Assembly (NCBI GenBank): GCA_016193285.1
Contig: JACPSL010000031.1
Span: 1-62,095, forward strand
DNA: 62,095 nucleotides
Direction of reading: 5' to 3'
Source of the DNA: Candidatus Melainabacteria bacterium
GTDB taxonomy: Bacteria > Cyanobacteriota > Vampirovibrionia > 2-02-FULL-35-15
Shown one piece after another: positions 16,253-61,396 of this stretch (position 1 is its first letter; the number at the start of each line of letters is the position of its first letter). A program made the translations under genes and the position numbers. A model generated the notes under the pieces. That model did not search any database and had not been told where the DNA came from. It saw only the letters and a list, made by a program, of their open reading frames with translations.

Positions 16253-17448
16253 TAAGTTAATCGTTTTACAATTATAGGATTCATCCGATTTATTCGGTGA
16301 ATCCTATAGAACGTGAAAAGTGATCAACGGAAGCTCAAGCTTGTCTTGAGCATAAAAAATAACAAGCTACAAAGGGCATACGGTGGATACCTTGGCACCA
16401 GCAGCCGATGAAGGACGTAGTAAGCTACGAAAAGTTGCGGTAAGCTGCTAACAAGCTACGACCCGCAAGATTCCGAATAGGGAAACCTGGTTCGAGTTAT
16501 ATCGAACCATTGCTAACTGAATTCATAGGTTAGTGAAGGTAAGTCTGCGAATTGAAACATCTTACGTAGCAGAAAGAAAAGAAAACAAATCAGTGATTCC
16601 CAAAGTAGCGGCGAGTGAAATGGGAAGAGCCTAAACCAATTAGCTTGCTAATTGGGGTTGTAGGACTGCATTTAGTACTTGCAAGGATAGTTGAACAAAG
16701 TTGGAAAGCTTGACCAAAGAAGGTGATAGTCCTGTAAACAAAATCTAAGCAAGGCGAGCAGTATCCTGAGTAAATCGGGGCACGTGAAACCCTGATTGAA
16801 GCTACCAGGACCATCTTGGTAAGGCTAAATACTGACTGGTGACCGATAGTGTACAAGTACAGCGATGGAAAGGTGAAAAGAACCCCGGGAGGGGAGTGAA
16901 ATAGAACATGAAACCGTATGCTTACAAGCAGTGGGAGGATAAGTAATTGTCTGACCGCGTGCCTGTTGAAGAATGAGCCGGCGAGTTAGTATGTCTAGTT
17001 TGGTTAAAGAGTGATATCTGGAGCCAAAGCGAAAGCGAGTCTGAATAGGGCGATTTTATTAGACATATTAGACGCGAACCTTGGTGATCTAACCATGGCC
17101 AGGTTGAAGCACAAGTAACATTGTGTGGAGGACCGAACCTATTAGTGTTGAAAAACTATTGGATGAGTTGTGGTTAGGGGTGAAATGCCAATCGAACCAA
17201 GATCTAGCTCGTTCTCCCCGAAATGTATTGAGGTACAGGGTTAGATTAAAGCTTTGTGGAGGTAGAGCACTAGTTCGGTAAGGGTGGTGAATAACCATAC
17301 CAAATCGAGTTAAACTCCGAATACCATTAAAGTGATATCTAGCACTGAGACGATGAGTGATAAGATTCACCGTCAAGAGGGGAATAGCCCAGACCACCAA
17401 CTAAGGTCCCTAAGTTAATGCTAAGTGACAAAGGAGGTGGGATTACTT

Positions 17449-17485
<37 letters not shown>

Positions 17486-18314
17486 AAAAGAGTGCGTAAC
17501 AGCTCACTGGTCAAGTGATTCTGCGCCGAAAATGTCCGGGGCTAAAGCATTATACCGAAGTTGTGGCTCAGCAATTTTTTTAAATTGTTGGGGGTAGGGG
17601 AGCGTTGTATTTTAGGATGAAGCTAAGTTGTAAAACTTGGTGGACAAAATACAAGTGAGAATGTCGGCTTGAGTAGCGAAAACATTGGTGAGAATCCAAT
17701 GCACCGAAAGCCTAAGGATTCCCACGGAAGGTTCGTCCACGTGGGGTTAGTCGGGACCTAAGCTGAGGCTGAAAAGCGTAGGTGATGGATAGCAGGTTGA
17801 TATTCCTGCACTATTAAGTAGTCGTTATAGGAACATTGGGACGTAGGAGGTTAGGTTGTGGCGGTTAATGGATTCCGCTCCAAGCGTGTAGGTAGTCACT
17901 GCAGGCAAATCCGCAGTGGCGCTATAACCTGAGGCGTAATGGTAATTGTCTACGGACAAGAAGCAACTCACACCACACTAACAAGAAAAGCAGTGTTTCA
18001 AGATTATTTAATACCCGTACCAGAAACCGACACAGGTAGGCTGGTAGAAAATACTAAGGTGCGCGAGATAACTCTCTCTAAGGAACTCGGCAAAATGCCC
18101 TCGTAAGTTTGCAAGAAGAGGGACTGTACAGTATGTAAGAAATTTACTTTCTGAAGTACAGTGCAGTGACACAAGGCAGACCCAAGCGACTGTTTAACAA
18201 AAACACAGGTCCCTGCTAACACATAAGTGGATGTATAGGGGCTGACACCTGCCCAGTGCTGGAAGGTCAAGGGAGTTGGTTAGGAGCAATCCAAAGCTAG
18301 CAACCAAAGCCCCA

Positions 18315-19084
<770 letters not shown>

Positions 19085-19588
19085 TGGTGTAACGATTTGG
19101 GTACTGTCTCGGAGAGAGACTCGGCGAAATAGATTTATCTGTGAAGAAGCGGATTTGGTGTGCCAGGACAGAAAGACCCTATTGAGCTTTACTGTAGGCT
19201 GGAATTGGTCGCGGGCGCAAGATACGTAGCATAGTTGGGAGACTTTGAGGCTTTACTTCTGGGTAGAGCGGAGTCAACAGTGAAATACCAATTTTTTTAC
19301 TCCTGCGTTCTAACCGAATGCTGTTATCCAGCATCGGGAAAGTTCCTGTCGGGCAGTTTGACTGGGGCGGTCACCTCCTAAAAAGTAACGGAGGTGCGCA
19401 ATGGTTCCCTCAGGCTGGTCGGAAATCAGCCGTTGAGTGTAAAAACATAAGGGAGCTTGACAGCAAGACAGACATGTCGAGCTGGTACGAAAGTAGGCTT
19501 TAGTGATCCGGTGGTTCCGCATGGAAGGGCCATCGCTCATCGGACAAAAGTTACCATAGGGATAACAGGCTGATCTCCCCCAAGAGTC

Positions 19589-19630
<42 letters not shown>

Positions 19631-19649
19631 TATCCTGGGGCGGTAGTAC

Positions 19650-19680
<31 letters not shown>

Positions 19681-19689
19681 ACGGCACGT

Positions 19690-19725
<36 letters not shown>

Positions 19726-20012
19726 ATATCCGGCATACCCGAAAGATATTTGAGAGGAGACTTCCTTAGTACGAGAGGACCGGGAAGTACAGACCTCTGG
19801 TTTACCAGTTGTCACGCCAGTGGCATACGCTGGGTAGCCATGTCTGGAGTGGATAAGTGCTGAAAGCATATAAGTACGAAGCCCACCTCAAGATGAGATA
19901 TCTCATACCACAAGGTAGTAAGATCTGCGGAAGACTACCGCGTTGATAGGCAGCAGGTCTAAGTGTAGTGATACACTCAGCCAAGCTGTACTAATAGATC
20001 GAGGGCTTGTTT

Positions 20013-20037
20013 TTTTCCTCTAGACCACAAAGGGATC
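20013..20037 (+). repeat. 3' arm of the 23S processing stem
   Basis: TTTTCCTCTAGACCACAAAG and following bases are complementary to 16228-16252 with only one or two mismatches. Confidence 0.8.
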
Positions 20038-49330: not shown

Positions 49331-49421
49331 GTACGTATTAAAATAATTATATACACAATGGTTTGTGAGATTTCTACAAATTAATATTAATTTTATAATC
49401 CTGTGCTTTGTGTTTTTTTAT

Positions 49422-49495
49422 GGGCCTTTAGCTCAATTGGATAGAGTACCTGGCTTCGAACCAGATGGTTGGGGGTTCGAGTCCCTCAAGGCCCG
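49422..49495 (+). tRNA. tRNA-Arg (anticodon UCG)
   Basis: 74 nt. Acceptor GGGCCTT/AAGGCCC, D arm AGCTCAATTGGATAGAGT, anticodon loop CTTCGAA (anticodon TCG), T arm GGGGGTTCGAGTCCC, discriminator G. The base of the anticodon stem has one C-A mismatch. The serine recombinase gene on the opposite strand ends inside it, so this tRNA is the probable integration site. Confidence 0.9.
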
Positions 49496-51097
49496 AGTTC
49501 TGAGATTTAATTCATCTAAAATGGCCTTTTGATCAGTAATGGTGAGCATCTCACGCAGTTCTAATCTTAGTAAATCTGTTTCAATAGCAGGATAGTCTTT
49601 TATTATTGGCTCTAGCCAGGAACAGCCTTCCAGGCTGAGTTTACTGTCCTTTAATAAAAAGTTCGAGCCTAAGGCTACAAAGATTTCCTTTTTAGTAGCA
49701 ATACCCCCTTTTAGAAAAGCATCTCGGGCATCTCTAGCAAAGTCAAAAGCCTTCCCTAGTTTTTTTTGCCAGCTATCAGCTCTTTCGCTAGTTTCTTTTA
49801 GTTTTTGTTCAAGTTGTTTTTTTTCATTCACCAGGGCGGTACGCTTTGGATTGTATTCTTCATCCGTGATCTGCTCTTTTAATTTCATATCAAAAAGTTT
49901 ATCTATTTGGTTTTGAGTATCTACTAATGCTTTAGCCTGCATTTCAAATATGTTTTGTCTTGTGTGAGTTTCTTGTGCATTTTCTTTGTTTATTATTTCT
50001 AATGCAAGGTCTCTAAACTCAGGAAGAATTGTAAACTTACAAATTTCTCTCATAATTTGTGCTTCTAAATCTTCAACTGTTATTGCCTTTTGAGTACATT
50101 TGTAGCCCTTTTTCTGGTGGGTACAGCGATAGTAAGTGTAATCCTTCAATTTGCCAGTCCTTTTTACAAGTTTGGTTTTTGTTTCAGCAGTTACAAAGCA
50201 ACTGCACTCTCCACATCTGATATTTCCAGCAGTAAAAGCAAAATTTCTTGTCTTTGTCCTTGGTTTGCCTTTTCTACCCAACATGAACTGTACAGCATCA
50301 AATTCTTCAAGGGTAACCATCTTTTTATGAACACCATTATATTGCTTTCCTTTGTATTCGATAATTTGTGCAAAAAAAGGATTGGTAAACATCTTGTAGA
50401 TCACGCTTCTTGAAAGCTCATTACCACCAAATCTTTTAGTTTTCTTTGTTCTAAAGCCCCACTCTTTGTTTGCAATATTCCTTATTTGTTCTGGATTATA
50501 AATTCCTGTAAGCATTAAATCCCACATTTTTCTAACTAAGTCAAAGCGATCTGGATCAGGAAGAATGTCATTTTCACCTCTTTCTTTTATCTTACTGTTT
50601 AAATAGCCAATTGGTGCTTGGTTTGGGGCCCAACCTTTTTTTAGTTTGCTTTCAAGCCCTCTTTTGACATTCTTACTTAAATCTACGCTAAATTGGTTTG
50701 CAACTCCCATTTCAAAACATAAAAATAATACATTATCCTCGGGTAAATGTTCTTTTTCATAAGTCCTTATTGATTTAATTATTCCATTTTGTAAGAGGTT
50801 GATTACTCTTCCCCCCTCTTCCATGTTCCTTGCAATTCTGTTGTTTTGCCAGCAAAGAATTCCATCGGCTTCGCCAGCTTCAATTTTCTCTATCATTTTA
50901 TTAAAGACTGGCCTGTTGTTTGCTGTTTTAGCCGATTTGGATTCCTCTAATATCTCTACTATTTTTAAGTTGTTCTTAGATGCAAGTTGCTTGAGCTTTT
51001 CAATTTGATCATCAATAGATTGCACTTGCTTATCTTCACCCTCAGTAGATTTTCTAGCATAGAGAATGTATCTAATTTTTTGATTGTTTTCTAACAT
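49433..51097 (-). CDS. Large serine recombinase (integrase) ending in tRNA-Arg
   Basis: 554 residues. Resolvase domain with nucleophile S17 in LYARKSTEGED and GILCWQNNRIARNMEEGG; a Recombinase domain (residues about 170-290); zinc ribbon IRCGECSCFV...YYRCTHQKKGYKC; and a coiled-coil region (residues about 370-440). It catalyses insertion and excision of its element. The last 21 residues (ending SNPQPSGSKPGTLSN) are encoded by the antisense strand of tRNA-Arg. That kind of readthrough end is typical of tyrosine integrases at tRNA genes and uncommon for this class. Confidence 0.93.
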   Translation of the reverse strand: MLENNQKIRYILYARKSTEGEDKQVQSIDDQIEKLKQLASKNNLKIVEILEESKSAKTANNRPVFNKMIEKIEAGEADGILCWQNNRIARNMEEGGRVINLLQNGIIKSIRTYEKEHLPEDNVLFLCFEMGVANQFSVDLSKNVKRGLESKLKKGWAPNQAPIGYLNSKIKERGENDILPDPDRFDLVRKMWDLMLTGIYNPEQIRNIANKEWGFRTKKTKRFGGNELSRSVIYKMFTNPFFAQIIEYKGKQYNGVHKKMVTLEEFDAVQFMLGRKGKPRTKTRNFAFTAGNIRCGECSCFVTAETKTKLVKRTGKLKDYTYYRCTHQKKGYKCTQKAITVEDLEAQIMREICKFTILPEFRDLALEIINKENAQETHTRQNIFEMQAKALVDTQNQIDKLFDMKLKEQITDEEYNPKRTALVNEKKQLEQKLKETSERADSWQKKLGKAFDFARDARDAFLKGGIATKKEIFVALGSNFLLKDSKLSLEGCSWLEPIIKDYPAIETDLLRLELREMLTITDQKAILDELNLRTRALRDSNPQPSGSKPGTLSN

Positions 51098-51269
51098 CTT
51101 CTTTCACCACAAACCAAGTCTTGCCTCTTTTTATCCCATTCAATGTTTTATTTAAAATGCGAGCCTTAAGTGTGTCTGCTTTTGCAAGTCCAAGCCTTTC
51201 AGCTTCCTTAAGAGTAATCAACTCCTTCCCATCTTTTGTGTACATATTTTCATCATCCATTATTCTCAC
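51072..51269 (-). CDS. Excisionase-like helix-turn-helix protein
   Basis: 65 residues from GTG 51269 (ATG 51260 possible). LITLKEAERLGLAKADTLKARILNKTLNGIKRGKTWFVVKEDVRKQ is a winged HTH like DNA-binding excisionase/MerR-type domains (RGKTWFVVKEDV is the wing). It overlaps the recombinase start by 26 bp, so the two are translated together. A likely recombination directionality factor; that role is inferred from position. Confidence 0.65.
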   Translation of the reverse strand: MRIMDDENMYTKDGKELITLKEAERLGLAKADTLKARILNKTLNGIKRGKTWFVVKEDVRKQSKN

Positions 51270-51321
51270 ACAAGTTTCATTCCCATTGTTCCCGATACAG
51301 TAAAATGGCCTAGCCTACTGT

Positions 51322-51948
51322 TCATGAGATTTTGTAGGACAGGCCAGTCGGCCTATTCCTAGAGCTTTTGCTATAGCTAAGCTCCTTTCTTAATCTTTCA
51401 ATATTACTAGCCATAGCTGATTTTGTCTTTTCACATTTCTCAAGAAATTTCTTATATCTCTTGGTAAATTCCCCTTTGTAGAAAAACCGCTTTATGCTAT
51501 TCCATTCTTCCATTAGTTGAAATGCTGGCATGTAGTTGCCATATTTTTTATTATGTCCGCTTAATTTACAAGATTTGTATGTGAGATTATGGCAATATCT
51601 ACAAGCAAAGTAATTACTGTGGGATGCCTTATACAGCACACCAAAGCGATTTTTGCATAAAGGGCAAACAAACCAATATCTTTTACCACCATAATTGCAT
51701 TTAGTAGTTGTTAAAGGGATTTCATACATAATGTCTGAGTTTGGGTAAATAATATAAAAAGCAGATTTATCTCCTAACAGCACACAAAATCCAATGGTGA
51801 GCTTGAAGCCCATGAGAGATGACCAAGTAATTGTGCCTATGCTTGCATGACTGATTGTGTTTTTGTCCAAGCCAAAGAGGGAGAGCTTCAAGCAACTTTC
51901 TGTTTCTAGTTTGGGATATGGGTGTATTTTTGTATTATTGAATTGCAT
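51322..51948 (-). CDS. Zinc-ribbon hypothetical protein of mobile elements
   Basis: 208 residues. A beta-rich N-terminal half (SLMGFKLTIGFCVLLGD) leads to a double CxxC zinc ribbon: WFVCPLCKNRFGVLY and FACRYCHNLTYKS. A basic helical C-terminus follows. Proteins with the same WxCPxC...CRHCxxLTYxS layout are frequent hypothetical genes in integrated elements. No enzymatic motif seen. Confidence 0.6.
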   Translation of the reverse strand: MQFNNTKIHPYPKLETESCLKLSLFGLDKNTISHASIGTITWSSLMGFKLTIGFCVLLGDKSAFYIIYPNSDIMYEIPLTTTKCNYGGKRYWFVCPLCKNRFGVLYKASHSNYFACRYCHNLTYKSCKLSGHNKKYGNYMPAFQLMEEWNSIKRFFYKGEFTKRYKKFLEKCEKTKSAMASNIERLRKELSYSKSSRNRPTGLSYKIS

Positions 51949-52005
51949 TTATCTTTCCAGGAGAGTGCTAAAGCAATGGTCTAAGCATGAAAAATGCCTG
52001 AATCA

Positions 52006-52293
52006 TTAGGGATCAGTTGGTGTTTCATCTTTTAATAGCTCTTGATTCTTTATAACTTTTACTTTGAAAAATCTCTTTTCTTTAAAGGTTTGAGAAAGTT
52101 TTAAATATTTTGCATTAGCATTGTTTAAAACATTAAACTTTGTTTCTCCTTTATCCCAGCTAATTGGAAGCCCTTTAAAGGGGATATTAATATAATATTC
52201 TTCATCAGCTTCAATAATTGGCATAAGTGCTTTGGAAAAGCTAATACATCTATCTTTAAATGATATAGCTCTAATATAATATTGAGATTTCAT
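52006..52293 (-). CDS. Small hypothetical protein
   Basis: 95 residues, starting 8 bp after the primase-helicase stop, so in the same operon. Beta-strand-rich (YYIRAISFKDRCISFSKAL, EEYYINIPFKGLPISW) with no known motif or cysteine pattern. Function unknown. Confidence 0.5.
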   Translation of the reverse strand: MKSQYYIRAISFKDRCISFSKALMPIIEADEEYYINIPFKGLPISWDKGETKFNVLNNANAKYLKLSQTFKEKRFFKVKVIKNQELLKDETPTDP

Positions 52294-52300
52294 AATATTT

Positions 52301-54679
52301 CTACTCTATCCATTTCTTTAACTCTCTTACTTTTTCCCATTTAAACCTTTCAAGGGGATCAGTTGGCGGCTCATCATCATCTTGGTACTCATTTTCCAAC
52401 TTGGTAGTAGGGGTGGAGTAACAAGATGATGAACTATCCTGTGCAGGATTTGAGGCGAGATTCTCCTTGGTACTCCTTGCTTCTTCTTGGGGTGGTGGTG
52501 AATTTGTTTTTTCATTTGAAGATTCTGTATCAGCAATTGAATTTAATCCCGCCCCTTTTAAATCCCATGCTACACAGCGATATTGAGCCTTTTTGGCTTG
52601 TTTCTTATCAAACATTTCATCATCCTTTGGAACTTGAGTAATCATATTACTTGCCAGCAATTCTTTAATTAGTTGCCTTGTCCTTTTATCTTTCAATCCC
52701 CATTTTTTCATAGCGTCATCTACAGTAAAAATATTGTCATCTCCAGAGAATTGATAAATTTGATTCCATTTATTTTGTAAATCCTTTGAAATATCACTTG
52801 CATTAGCATCAAAATAATCTTTGAAATATTTGATTACAAGATCATAATGATCTACTAATAAATTTATGCTTATCCCTGCGGTGGGTGAGGAATAACAAGA
52901 AGAATTAGCCGTCAATTCTTGTGGATTCTCAGAGATTTGCTTGGTACTCCTACCCGATTGCCAAGCAGTACCAAGTTGGTACTGATATAGATACCCAACA
53001 ATCCTTAATAGTTTTAAAAACTTCTTAACATCTCTACTTGCTTCTGGGTTTCGACTGTGGAAAGTTATTTCTTTGTTGAAAGGGATTTTAATATTTTTAT
53101 ATTTAATTGGCTCAAGAAGTTCAACAGCTTTTCTATGTTTGGCAATTAAAAACTTTCTTTCTTCTTCATCCATTTCTTCACAAGCAAGAACTTGATTAAC
53201 AATATTTCTAACATGATCAGGGCTATCATCAGTATTAAAAATTAAAAGCCTGTTTTCATTTTCCTCATGTAGCTTTGATTGAGTTGTTGTAGAGATATAA
53301 ACAATTGGCCCTTTTACTTTTAACTTCTTTAATTTCTTTGTCAGGTCTTTCTCATTTGAATCAACAATCATTCTAGTAACTTCATCATCTTCAACTAATT
53401 GCCGCCAAGCACTAGCAATTTCCCAAAACTTATCATCAGGCGGCCTTTCTTCTGTTATTATAATTATTTTGTGAGAAATGTCTGTCCAGTAATTAAGTGC
53501 TTGCTCACTTTGAGAAGTAACAGAATGGACTACTCCATCTGGCATTAGGTTTGTTACAGTTTTTACAAGTTTAGTTTTACCTGAACTACTTGCCCCTTTA
53601 AGAATCACTCCGAGACAGCTTTCTTGTTTGTAACTTATGCAAGCAAGATAAAGCCTGACAAGGTTATCTTTCTCACCTACAATTCCTAACTTACTAAAGT
53701 CCTCAAGCAATTCATCAATCATGTTTGGATTTCTCAAATAACTCCAAGCGGCTTCATTCACTCTTTTATTAAATGATCTAGTTTTGGTGAGTAAGTCATA
53801 TAAAGTTTGAAAGGTGTTATCTTTCAGCCAATCTCTTAATTCTTGTTGATCTAAAACAATCCCATTAGCATCAGGATATTCTTGTTGTATTAATTCCATT
53901 TCATCTTTGCCAGCTTGATCACTGTCAAACAATAAATAAACATCATCAAACAATCCAAAATTGAAACTTGGTGAATTGATTTTGTGTGTGCTATTTACTC
54001 CATGCACACTAATAACTACATAAAACTCTTTTCTAAATTCATCAGTTGCAACACAATCAAGAGCCCAAAGATTAGTAAAGCCTTCAAGTAATAATAATTT
54101 CTTTTGCCCGCAAGGCGGATCAAGTTCCAGATACTGTGGGTTAATAATTTCTTCTGAGTTTATATCCCATCTATCACCTCTATCATCAAGAGCTTTTAAT
54201 TTCCATCTCTTGCCGATTTGAATTGCAAGAGCTTCATTTTCCTCACAATATTTAATTGGATATTTTTTAATAATATATTCTGGTTTTGTAATATTTTTCT
54301 TTTCAAACCATTCAGCAATTGCCCCTCTCTTTAAATCAGCATCAACAAGCCTAAGTGGTTTAACTGTCCATGTCTTTTCTTTTTTATATTGCTTTTTTAT
54401 TTTGATGTGAAATAGATCAGCAATTTCTTGTATAGCTGTTTTAAACGGAACACCTTTCATCTCTTTCCAAAACTCAATAGGATCACCTCTGCGGCCACAA
54501 GCAAAACAGTTATAAACTCCATCTGCGGTACGGATAGAGAGACTTGGATTATTGTCCTCATGGCCAGGCAATATGCACTTAAAAGAAGTGTTTGAGTTTC
54601 TTAGCTCTAGCCCAAAGTACTTATAAAAAGCGTGAACATCTAGCCTACCAAGTAAATCTTGGCCGTCTGTGTTTGCCAT
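52301..54679 (-). CDS. CHC2-TOPRIM primase fused to an AAA-type helicase
   Basis: 792 residues. Zinc domain of the CHC2 type (C35, H40, C58, C61: FKCILPGHEDNN...VYNCFACGRRGDP), a TOPRIM-like region (LLLLEGFTNLWALD with E199, LLFDSDQAGKDE with DSD 252-254), an ATPase with Walker A GASSSGKT (362-369) and Walker B IIIITEE, then a C-terminal winged-helix segment (VDDAMKKWGLKDKRTRQLIKELL). Probably the replication initiator/primase of the element. A roughly 28-residue segment occurs twice (about 574-601 and 730-758). Confidence 0.85.
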   Translation of the reverse strand: MANTDGQDLLGRLDVHAFYKYFGLELRNSNTSFKCILPGHEDNNPSLSIRTADGVYNCFACGRRGDPIEFWKEMKGVPFKTAIQEIADLFHIKIKKQYKKEKTWTVKPLRLVDADLKRGAIAEWFEKKNITKPEYIIKKYPIKYCEENEALAIQIGKRWKLKALDDRGDRWDINSEEIINPQYLELDPPCGQKKLLLLEGFTNLWALDCVATDEFRKEFYVVISVHGVNSTHKINSPSFNFGLFDDVYLLFDSDQAGKDEMELIQQEYPDANGIVLDQQELRDWLKDNTFQTLYDLLTKTRSFNKRVNEAAWSYLRNPNMIDELLEDFSKLGIVGEKDNLVRLYLACISYKQESCLGVILKGASSSGKTKLVKTVTNLMPDGVVHSVTSQSEQALNYWTDISHKIIIITEERPPDDKFWEIASAWRQLVEDDEVTRMIVDSNEKDLTKKLKKLKVKGPIVYISTTTQSKLHEENENRLLIFNTDDSPDHVRNIVNQVLACEEMDEEERKFLIAKHRKAVELLEPIKYKNIKIPFNKEITFHSRNPEASRDVKKFLKLLRIVGYLYQYQLGTAWQSGRSTKQISENPQELTANSSCYSSPTAGISINLLVDHYDLVIKYFKDYFDANASDISKDLQNKWNQIYQFSGDDNIFTVDDAMKKWGLKDKRTRQLIKELLASNMITQVPKDDEMFDKKQAKKAQYRCVAWDLKGAGLNSIADTESSNEKTNSPPPQEEARSTKENLASNPAQDSSSSCYSTPTTKLENEYQDDDEPPTDPLERFKWEKVRELKKWIE
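52406..52490. repeat. Internal repeat copy 2 of the primase-helicase gene
   Basis: Together with 52876-52956 this region encodes similar segments (RSTK...NP...SSCYS-PT) and shares TTGGTACTCCTT at one end and GGGTGGAGTAACAAG-like sequence at the other. Confidence 0.6.
52876..52956. repeat. Internal repeat copy 1 of the primase-helicase gene
   Basis: Encodes GRSTKQISENPQELTANSS and CYSSPT. Diverged copy of 52406-52490; TTGGTACT also occurs next to both copies (52382 and about 52974). Confidence 0.6.
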
Positions 54680-54697
54680 ATTTTTTACTCCTTTGAA

Positions 54698-54880
54698 TTA
54701 ATTTTCATTTTTACTTTCCCCAACCCCTTGCAAATCTTGCCCACTGCTACTTTTCAAGATGATTGCTGTGATCTGCACAAGTTTTGAAAGCTCATTCCTG
54801 GCGACTTCTCGCGTAACACTTTTTCCTCTCGCTTGTAGTAGCCCTAGATAGTTATCAATGTCTGTTTCTGAAAGATGCAT
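54698..54880 (-). CDS. Very small hypothetical protein
   Basis: 60 residues: LSETDIDNYLGLLQARGKSVTREVARNELSKLVQITAIIL. Helical, no known motif. It begins 1 bp after the stop of the 83-residue gene and ends 18 bp before the primase, so it is an operon member by context. Confidence 0.5.
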   Translation of the reverse strand: MHLSETDIDNYLGLLQARGKSVTREVARNELSKLVQITAIILKSSSGQDLQGVGESKNEN

Positions 54881-54881
54881 A

Positions 54882-55133
54882 TCATTGTCCTGTAAAAATT
54901 CTGGTTTTTAATAATTTCAATTGATCAAAAAAAGTCCGTGGATTAACTTCCAACGTATCTGAAAAATATGCGTTAATTACTTTTGCTAGGTTTTCACTCT
55001 CGCAAAATGAAAACTGGACTTTTTTAGGATTTGATTTGTTTATCTCTTGAGGCTGAAATCCAAAATAAATAAGAGTAGAAACTATTGGTAAATCGGTAGT
55101 TATAAAATTTTTTGCTTTAATATTATTTTCCAT
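54882..55133 (-). CDS. Hypothetical protein, first gene after the TTTGAACT control region
   Basis: 83 residues. Contains FGFQPQEINKSNPKKVQFSFCESENLAKVINAYFSDTLEVNPRTFFD, a beta-alpha arrangement reminiscent of small DUF5659-type phage/plasmid proteins; the match is by feel only. It is the first gene of the minus-strand unit that includes the primase. Confidence 0.55.
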   Translation of the reverse strand: MENNIKAKNFITTDLPIVSTLIYFGFQPQEINKSNPKKVQFSFCESENLAKVINAYFSDTLEVNPRTFFDQLKLLKTRIFTGQ

Positions 55134-55181
55134 GTCAATTTTCTTTTTGGAGTTAATTTTGTCATTGGAAAGTTCATAAGT

Positions 55182-55197
55182 AGTTCAAATTTGAACT
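55182..55197. promoter_or_regulatory. Palindromic operator candidate
   Basis: AGTTCAAATTTGAACT is a perfect 16-bp palindrome, 49 bp upstream of the 83-residue gene. It contains the same TTTGAACT unit seen twice at 55305-55323. Confidence 0.6.
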
Positions 55198-55304
55198 TTT
55201 AGAGAACTCTTTGTAAATTAGAAATAAGACTATAAAACAAGCAAAAGCCTACAAATACCATGGTTTAAACACCACACAATAACATCTAACTTTATTATAG
55301 AAAT

Positions 55305-55323
55305 TTTGAACTTTTTTTGAACT
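55305..55323. promoter_or_regulatory. Direct TTTGAACT boxes
   Basis: Two TTTGAACT octamers begin 11 bp apart (55305-55312 and 55316-55323), about one helical turn, just after the end of the 143-residue gene. With the palindrome at 55182 they form a set of four half-sites around the control region. Confidence 0.55.
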
Positions 55324-55336
55324 CAATTTTCTGAAG

Positions 55337-55768
55337 TTAATCTTCTGACATTAAGATAGATTTATTTTTGAATGTCCAAGTCTTATTGTTGCAGTGTATG
55401 AATTTTTCTTTTTTATCAGTACCAGCGGTTTCAGTTAATATTTTATTTAGCCGTGAGCATAATTTATATGCTATTTTTTTATCTTTGCCCTTTGTCTTAG
55501 CTACACCCTTTATCTCTTTTTCTTGAACTGCTTTATCATATTTACTTATAAAATATCCGTGTAATCTTTTAAGTTGTGGAGTGAGTTTTACAACTGAACT
55601 CTGAGACGCTATTAATCCATCTTTATAGGCTGTCAAGTTACCAATCCTATATGCTTCTTTTAGCTGTTTAGAGGTCTCATAATCTTGCACTTCGCGACAT
55701 ATTAATCTCTCACTCAACTCTATAGAATGTTTTGTCCCAGTAGCAGTAACTTCTTTTTTATATTTCAT
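55337..55768 (-). CDS. Basic hypothetical protein
   Basis: 143 residues, strongly basic (many KK and KGK groups) and helical, with EVQDYETSKQLKEAYRIGNL and KRLHGYFISKYDKAVQEKEI. Possibly nucleic-acid binding. No family recognised. It lies upstream of the TTTGAACT boxes on the same strand as the element operon. Confidence 0.5.
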   Translation of the reverse strand: MKYKKEVTATGTKHSIELSERLICREVQDYETSKQLKEAYRIGNLTAYKDGLIASQSSVVKLTPQLKRLHGYFISKYDKAVQEKEIKGVAKTKGKDKKIAYKLCSRLNKILTETAGTDKKEKFIHCNNKTWTFKNKSILMSED

Positions 55769-55902
55769 AGTAATATGTTTTATGTAGTGTTAATTTTATT
55801 TTTACATTAATAATACCAGTAATTTTTCAACTAATCGCCCAACACTCAATTATTAGATTCCATAGGCTTTTTGTTATTGCCCCGAGCATCAAGCAATAAT
55901 AA

Positions 55903-56079
55903 AGCATTTGTCAAAACAATGCACATGGTCTAAGAAGAACTTTTGCAACAGTAGCGGCTAACGCTGGCAAACCACTAAATATTATTTCACTTGCTTTAGG
56001 ACATGCTGATTTAAAGACTACGCAGGGGTATTTGATGACAACTCAAGATGAAGTAATTAAAGAGATGCAGGGGTGGTAA
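55903..56079 (+). pseudogene. C-terminal remnant of a tyrosine recombinase (phage/Xer-type integrase)
   Basis: No start codon, but the frame reads HGLRRTFATVAANAG, ISLALGHADLKTTQGYL and ends EVIKEMQGW at TAA 56077-56079. This includes the catalytic box II HxLRRT-like Arg, the LGHxxxxTTxxYL His/Tyr motif, and so the last 55 residues of an integrase. Everything upstream is missing. It marks an older integration event at the left edge of the accessory region. Confidence 0.8.
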
Positions 56080-60813: not shown

Positions 60814-60884
60814 TTTACTTGAAAATTTGTTTTTCGTCTTTTGGTTCTAACCTAACTTTAAAAACAATAGCTATAATAAAGTTT

Positions 60885-61166
60885 ATGGATTTTTCATCTA
60901 TAGACTTTAGGTTACATGCTGTTCAAAGAATGTATGAACGTGGAATAACAACAATAGATGTTACAGAGGTAGTGAAAAATGGAAAAGTTATTGAACAATA
61001 TTTAGATGATAAACCGTTTCCAAGTTATCTCATGTCAGGTTTTATTAATGGGAAATCACTACATGTAGTAGTTACTATTGACAATAAAACTAAAAAAGCG
61101 ATTATAATTACAGTGTATGAACCTGACCCAAAGTTATGGCAAGCAGGATTTGAAAAGAGAAAATAA
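60885..61166 (+). CDS. DUF4258 protein, putative toxin of a type II TA pair
   Basis: 93 residues from ATG 60885 (an upstream in-frame start is less likely). FRLHAVQRMYERGITTIDVTEVVKNGKVIEQY and LHVVVTIDNKTKKAIIITVYEPDP match DUF4258 proteins, which have an H...R-type RNase-like core (H with RMxxRGI). It lies 2 bp before a YgiT-type zinc finger gene, the standard partner arrangement with toxin first, as in mqsRA-like modules. Confidence 0.8.
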   Translation: MDFSSIDFRLHAVQRMYERGITTIDVTEVVKNGKVIEQYLDDKPFPSYLMSGFINGKSLHVVVTIDNKTKKAIIITVYEPDPKLWQAGFEKRK

Positions 61167-61168
61167 AA

Positions 61169-61396
61169 ATGAAATGTACAATCTGTAAAAATGGTGAAAC
61201 TAAAGAAGGGTATACCACAGCGACCTTAGCTAAGGGAAGTACAACAGTTGTTTTTCAAGATGTCCCTGCACAGGTTTGTCAAAACTGCGGTGAAGCATTT
61301 TTCTCGGAAGAGACTACAACACAGCTCCTCAAACTAGCAGAGTCAGCAGCTAAGTCAGGTGTACAAGTAGAAGTAAGAGAATATTTAGCAGCTTAG
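61169..61396 (+). CDS. YgiT-type zinc finger protein, putative antitoxin
   Basis: 75 residues. N-terminal zinc-binding domain with CTICKNGE and VCQNCGEAFFS (two CxxC pairs), as in MqsA/YgiT antitoxins. The C-terminal HTH of full MqsA is absent; a short helical tail (LLKLAESAAKSGVQVEVREYL) is present instead, as in the short YgiT-type proteins that accompany DUF4258. Follows the toxin by 2 bp. Confidence 0.82.
   Translation: MKCTICKNGETKEGYTTATLAKGSTTVVFQDVPAQVCQNCGEAFFSEETTTQLLKLAESAAKSGVQVEVREYLAA

Follow-up and report, generated by a model that had tools for sequence, protein, structure and literature searches.

tRNA genes are by textbook practice left to tyrosine integrases. Islander excludes serine integrases on the ground that the targeting of tRNA genes is known for tyrosine integrases alone (PMC4383910), and a mycobacteriophage review states that serine integrases do not do so (PMC9262239). 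A survey of actinomycete integrative and conjugative elements (AICEs) nevertheless lists phage phiRSM1 and eight Mycobacterium AICEs with serine recombinases in tRNA-Ser and tRNA-Leu, which it calls rare (PMC3218068), so the principle is already known and is not categorically new. tRNA goes unmentioned in the main text of a large 2022 survey of large serine recombinases (LSRs) (PMC10083194), and several papers on serine integrases and islands do not survey such enzymes at tRNA genes. Among small satellites, the phage-inducible chromosomal minimalist island (PICMI) packs an integrase, AlpA and a primase within 6.1 kb and sits by fis in Vibrionaceae (PMC10803314). Here we describe an element of about 6.4 kb in a Candidatus Melainabacteria genome (GCA_016193285.1, contig JACPSL010000031.1, positions 1 to 62,095, hereafter the window), which carries its own LSR and primase-helicase and whose LSR gene runs into a tRNA-Arg gene. 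It is a single copy in one draft genome, known from assembled sequence alone. We consider it likely to be an integrative mini-replicon that is excised by its LSR, primes its own copying and is moved by a helper.

Gene content of the element

The element consists of eight co-directional open reading frames (ORFs) on the minus strand, running from 55768 to 49433. This single-direction block had been described in an earlier note made on the letters of this DNA, and all eight ORFs are present at the positions given there. The last gene (49433–51097) encodes the LSR, a protein of 554 residues with the domain order of serine integrases (Pfam Resolvase, 1.7e-19; Recombinase, 2.9e-4; Zn_ribbon_recom, 1.7e-8; PHROG 95 integrase, 3.2e-61). 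Residues Y13, R15, K16, S17, R62, R87 and R90 are invariant in 10 homologues, and YxRKS is a motif of the catalytic type. The largest gene (52301–54679) encodes a 792-residue primase-helicase with CHC2 (Pfam, 6e-16), TOPRIM and AAA+ parts, which matches PHROG primases and, as a profile, the solved DnaG and T7 primases. Its TOPRIM residues E199-G200, D252 and D254 and its Walker A residues S365, G367 and K368 are invariant in 16 aligned homologues. The predicted structure is confident for the N-terminal 300 residues and of low confidence for most of what lies beyond TOPRIM, including the helicase part. The domains and invariant residues bear out the recombinase and the CHC2-TOPRIM-ATPase read from the letters in the earlier note.

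The remaining six proteins are shorter. A 65-residue helix-turn-helix (HTH)-like protein (51072–51269), a candidate directionality factor or regulator, shares 63% identity with the HTH protein at the same position in sister element L041 and 30% with that of L024 (L and G numbers are our handles for loci and genomes). The protein has no Pfam match at a cut-off of 0.1, and the earlier note's term excisionase-like holds for it only by resemblance. It is followed upstream by a 208-residue zinc-ribbon-like protein (51322–51948) with only weak Pfam zinc-ribbon matches and 31% identity to its homologue in L041, and by a 95-residue ORF (52006–52293) with no Pfam or PHROG family above cut-off. Beyond the primase-helicase lie a 60-residue protein (54698–54880), homologous to a small primase-adjacent protein of other elements (hhalign probability 95%, E 3.8e-8), and an 83-residue DUF5659 protein (54882–55133; Pfam 1.6e-9) with homologues in L041 and L022. 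The operon begins with a gene (55337–55768) for a lysine-rich protein of 143 residues with no Pfam or PHROG family match.

The DUF5659 gene and the 143-residue gene are 203 bp apart, and this gap contains an iteron-like array (55171–55323), in which AGTTC at 55171 and 55182 and GAACT at 55193, 55204, 55308 and 55319 follow each other in 11-bp steps within each group. The word occurs six times against 0.46 expected, and this is the densest 200-nt stretch for it in the window. The array is a possible iteron origin or operator.

Pfam and PHROG scans found no capsid, portal, terminase, relaxase or translocase family in the element proteins, and no Pfam match to an FtsK/SpoIIIE-type Tra protein. 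The original observation that the block has neither transfer nor capsid genes therefore holds for the families scanned.

Boundaries and the tRNA target

The 3′ end of the LSR gene overlaps, in antisense, an intact tRNA-Arg(TCG) gene on the plus strand (49421–49496 by ARAGORN; Rfam RF00005 at 49422–49495, 66.2 bits), so that the last codons of the LSR (...RDSNPQPSGSKPGTLSN) are antisense tRNA. By running into the tRNA from the opposite side, the LSR gene marks the integration site and the tRNA stays whole. The attL core would be CCCGAG at the tRNA 3′ end (49492–49497, plus strand). The same word recurs at 55881–55886, also on the plus strand, in the stretch that separates the operon's first gene from a tyrosine-integrase stub starting near 55918; these are its only two occurrences on the plus strand of the window. 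When positions 55769–55918 were shuffled, 53 of 5000 shuffles matched the tRNA end as well over a 9-nt core and 1037 of 5000 over a 22-nt core; the match is unlikely by chance for the narrow core and unremarkable for the wide one. With moderate confidence, the right end probably lies near 55881–55886, a candidate attR, giving an element of about 6,389 bp; we infer the exact position from this repeat. The interval proposed in the earlier note, 49433–56079, had the gene block right; it overshot the right end by about 190 bp and so took in the stub, and on the left it missed the tRNA gene.

A direct-repeat search around the element found no repeat of at least 14 bp that links the right end with the tRNA. 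Methods based on direct repeats miss such islands owing to the shortness of the shared core. The predicted attP junction of the circle reads TTGTTATTGC-CCCGAG-TTCTGAGATTTAATTC and the predicted empty site tRNA-Arg...AAGGCCCGAG-CATCAAGCAATAAT. In the circle the LSR is predicted to end in ...LRTRGNNKKPMESNN, and integration would exchange this C-terminal tail for the one encoded by the tRNA. In the empty tRNA-Arg sites of genomes G006, G007, G009 and G010, the tRNA ends resemble attL and the flanks are too diverged to place attR. A 103-bp stretch common to L027 and L040 was considered as an attP arm; it contains no core match and was dropped as evidence.

The neighbouring stub (55918–56079, plus strand) is the C-terminal part of an unrelated tyrosine integrase, 85% identical over 53 residues to an intact integrase in L027, and probably lies outside the element. 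Intact relatives of this integrase sit at tRNA-Arg(TCG) in G004 and G008, and two intact copies of its type are found elsewhere in the source genome. The stub is most simply explained by an earlier tyrosine-integrase island in this tRNA-Arg gene. One such 7.7-kb island in G004 (L073 6032–13859, G004:C6) occupies tRNA-Arg(TCG), carries Prim-Pol-like and XRE-like genes and is delimited by a 51-bp repeat of the 3′ half of that tRNA; it has the same plan with another class of integrase.

A recombinase family found mostly at tRNA and tmRNA genes

Since back-translated primase patterns matched no relatives in viral and genome collections, the recombinase alignment served as the query. The family set comprises the best 80 of 208 recombinase matches in 84,980 GTDB species genomes, and in these public genomes the analysis covered some 5 kb on the upstream side of the recombinase. 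Most of these best 80 come from Patescibacteria, the others from Melainabacteria, Scalindua, Atribacteria, Endomicrobiia, one deltaproteobacterium and Bacteroidetes. Recombinases 37–58% identical also occur within the same bacterial family and class.

A convergent tRNA or transfer-messenger RNA (tmRNA) gene is found at the recombinase 3′ end in 57 of the 73 testable loci, i.e. those with sequence past the recombinase gene, compared with 10 of 547 other ORFs of the same loci (Fisher p 4e-55; an earlier count within a narrower margin was 55). Rfam accounts for six of the remaining loci with group I introns (L120, L131, L161 and L170), a tmRNA (L172) and a tRNA (L184). Group I introns abut the recombinase 3′ end at L042 (11999–12209), L197 (11624–11865), L161 (6648–6924), L170 (4655–4970), L120 (6648–7009) and L131 (6651–6952). 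They presumably sit within the target tRNA, and ARAGORN misses the tRNAs at these loci because the introns hide them. The L044 recombinase ends in a tmRNA according to Rfam. Recombinases of the phylum that are more distant likewise mostly end in tRNAs; those on viral contigs L199–L236, shorter serine recombinases, do not. Nor is there a tRNA at the Bacteroidetes members, so the trait is not universal. A related recombinase at L047 (4081–5865, G001:C27) overlaps the 3′ end of ssb, not a tRNA.

Mapped on the recombinase tree, the target tRNA changes 57 times against 74.8 in shuffles, and tRNA-His 8 times against 23. Target identity is clustered on the tree, yet it switches often. These data bear on the idea that the overlap merely reflects a hot spot shared with tyrosine-integrase islands, the serine recombinase having some other target. 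The islands at tRNA-Arg(TCG) in G004 and G008 and the stub of their integrase beside the element would agree with it. However, in 57 of 73 loci from many phyla it is the recombinase gene itself that overlaps, and the target follows the recombinase tree, so that we give this already disfavoured idea hardly any weight.

Plasmids yielded no recombinase match at 1e-30, and phage records a single one at 27% identity. Three contigs carry a recombinase of the same family, two from IMG/VR with Zot-type assembly genes (L196 and L197, filamentous-phage-like) and one with both terminase subunits (L198); all three look like true phages. The L197 recombinase ends at an intron adjoining tRNA-like sequence. 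As the recombinase family is common to phages and mini-replicons, a phage helper is plausible.

Relatives of the element are independent and modular

The combination of a replication gene with the recombinase is conserved. At about 40 of 67 loci (about 60%) an upstream protein, a primase or Prim-Pol, matches our panel of element primases, and among 43 proteins sampled from the largest ORFs upstream, Pfam and PHROG find mainly primases, Prim-Pol and AAA proteins. The 25 families listed for these 43 proteins include no capsid, terminase, relaxase or FtsK/Tra-type family. The locus of relative L027 has a weak match to a small terminase subunit. Elements of the family differ in their exchangeable replication module: this one, L022, L023, L025 and L042 have CHC2-TOPRIM, L039 and L041 have Prim-Pol, and L048 has DUF3854/DUF3987. 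In G006 and G010, elements at the same tRNA-Pro have recombinase DNA that is 92% identical, and the remainder of the two elements is different. In G028 and G033, att junctions are repeated at tRNA-His, which shows tandem, repeated integration.

The earlier note had proposed an integrated, phage-satellite-like element that brings a recombinase and a primase-helicase of its own, and gene content, the tRNA boundary and the many independent relatives of the same plan all support this. It had also raised the converse, that homologues always lie within a larger prophage or conjugative element; this was looked for among the relatives and is not the case. The element is not what is left of a larger prophage or integrative and conjugative element. 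A related thought is that it is an integrative mobilizable element (IME) or AICE-like element helped by conjugation, with its transfer part cryptic or supplied in trans. AICEs do combine Prim-Pol replication with integrases, eight of them in Mycobacterium with serine recombinases in tRNA-Leu (PMC3218068), and sister elements of the present family use Prim-Pol. Yet neither the element nor the families listed for recombinase neighbours in the relatives include relaxase or FtsK/Tra-type genes, which makes help by conjugation quite improbable.

Most relatives also encode an XRE regulator and a protein of 300–440 residues, and those of the same bacterial family carry defence-like cargo. Their absence here, together with the truncated tyrosine integrase next door, would fit a decayed copy, i.e. 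a once-larger tRNA-Arg island (a phage satellite or defence island) that has lost XRE, cargo and its distal end and is now static. Against such decay, all eight ORFs are intact, the catalytic motifs of the recombinase and primase are kept, and a candidate attR lies just past the operon; we regard decay as unlikely, although it is the most serious of the alternatives.

In 12 loci, mostly of Patescibacteria, the orphan LOOT RNA (Rfam RF03000) is found upstream of a tRNA-targeting recombinase, in antisense orientation: L119 (1543–1659), L120 (1935–2053), L123 (1069–1190), L129 (1383–1507), L137 (13–138), L147 (1536–1665), L161 (1528–1649), L168 (101–223), L173 (1856–1987), L174 (2942–3062), L189 (1682–1806) and L190 (3249–3367). 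A subset of the tRNA-targeting elements may carry this RNA.

Proposed life cycle and significance

For an integrative mini-replicon, the likely identity of the element, we propose the following cycle. The LSR would recombine a site on the element with the 3′ end of tRNA-Arg(TCG), keeping the tRNA intact and turning its own last codons into antisense tRNA. Excision would be carried out by the LSR and the small HTH protein, possibly as directionality factor. The excised circle would be copied by the CHC2-TOPRIM-AAA+ primase-helicase, maybe from the 11-bp array at 55171–55323, and would reach new cells via a helper, most likely a phage. The sequence itself shows which genes are present, where the tRNA boundary lies, and that both the recombinase–tRNA overlap and the pairing of a replication gene with the recombinase are conserved; excision, replication and the helper are inferred. 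Several points weigh against this proposal. The attR core is just 6 bp, and the genomes compared, none of them of the same genus, give no empty site for the exact locus. The element is also without the XRE regulator and the 300–440-residue protein typical of relatives, so it may be reduced.

More tentatively, and with slightly less than even confidence, the family may represent undescribed, helper-dependent mini-replicons that cross phyla and are common in Patescibacteria and Melainabacteria, with LSRs specialised for tRNA and tmRNA 3′ ends, exchangeable CHC2-TOPRIM, Prim-Pol or DUF3854/DUF3987 modules and, in one sub-group, LOOT as an element-borne RNA. The literature searched contains no description of a large cross-phylum clade of tRNA-targeting serine integrases with mini-replicons; the 2020 TIGER paper lay outside that search, and an earlier mention is possible. 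A tRNA-bound LSR clade, each member with one tRNA, would alter how genomic islands are searched for, and many islands of Patescibacteria and Melainabacteria would come to light. Such a clade would be a source of orthogonal serine integrases whose landing sites are natural and conserved, and would account for the gain of mobile cargo by very small genomes without conjugation genes.

Other features of the window

Chromosomal genes lie to the left of the element. The 23S rRNA gene at 16360–20014 spans 3,655 nt compared with a model of 2,925 positions, and inside it an ORF (18436–18984) encodes a LAGLIDADG-like protein of 182 residues with the motif GFVDGEGCF; the extra length and the ORF probably represent an intron with a homing endonuclease. 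At 60819–61396 a DUF4258 protein is followed by an MqsA/YgiT-like zinc-finger protein, likely a toxin-antitoxin pair, and a DUF3800 gene adjoins it.

Comparison with known systems

Prophages are recognised by capsid, portal and terminase genes, which Pfam and PHROG do not find here. Staphylococcal cassette chromosome (SCC) elements combine large serine recombinases with a replication-like gene and target rlmH. The likeness to SCC-type cassettes suggested in the earlier note is unsupported, because the target is a tRNA gene: tRNA-Arg, not the rlmH 3′ end, lies at the boundary.

P4-like satellites, phage-inducible chromosomal islands (PICIs) and tycheposons have tRNA sites and primases of their own and, to our knowledge, tyrosine integrases. 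P4 and PICIs also carry packaging or capsid-control genes, which by description sets them apart from the present element, a serine-recombinase element in which no packaging gene was found. Tycheposons, as generally defined, depend on a helper and pair a tyrosine recombinase with a tRNA, in place of the serine recombinase seen here. What the three groups, all named in PMC11389934, share with the element is that they are small and integrated; they depend on helpers, as the element probably does.

The AICEs in tRNA-Leu of Mycobacterium resemble the element in having a serine recombinase that enters a tRNA gene and a replication gene, which is a Prim-Pol in sister elements L039 and L041 (PMC3218068). 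Unlike them, the present element has no match to an FtsK/Tra-type translocase, belongs to a non-actinobacterial host and encodes a CHC2-TOPRIM replication protein, where AICEs use RepSA, RepAM (DUF3631) or Prim-Pol. IMEs are marked by a relaxase, of which Pfam and PHROG find no family in the element; oriT was not searched for. As far as its description goes, the filamentous phage phiRSM1 similarly has a serine recombinase at a tRNA 3′ end, and the Zot-bearing L196 and L197 carry the present family. It differs, by the same description, in being a phage with coat and assembly genes, which the element lacks, and in its resolvase-like enzyme.

The nearest plan is that of PICMI. PICMI lies next to fis, uses a DUF3987/DUF5906 primase and is packaged by a helper phage, whereas the present element, known from its genes alone, has an LSR at tRNA-Arg and not beside fis, an HTH protein without a Pfam match and a CHC2-TOPRIM-AAA+ protein. 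Both are about 6 kb long, are built on a core of integrase, small HTH protein (AlpA in PICMI) and primase, have no capsid genes, and have related elements with defence cargo (PMC10803314).

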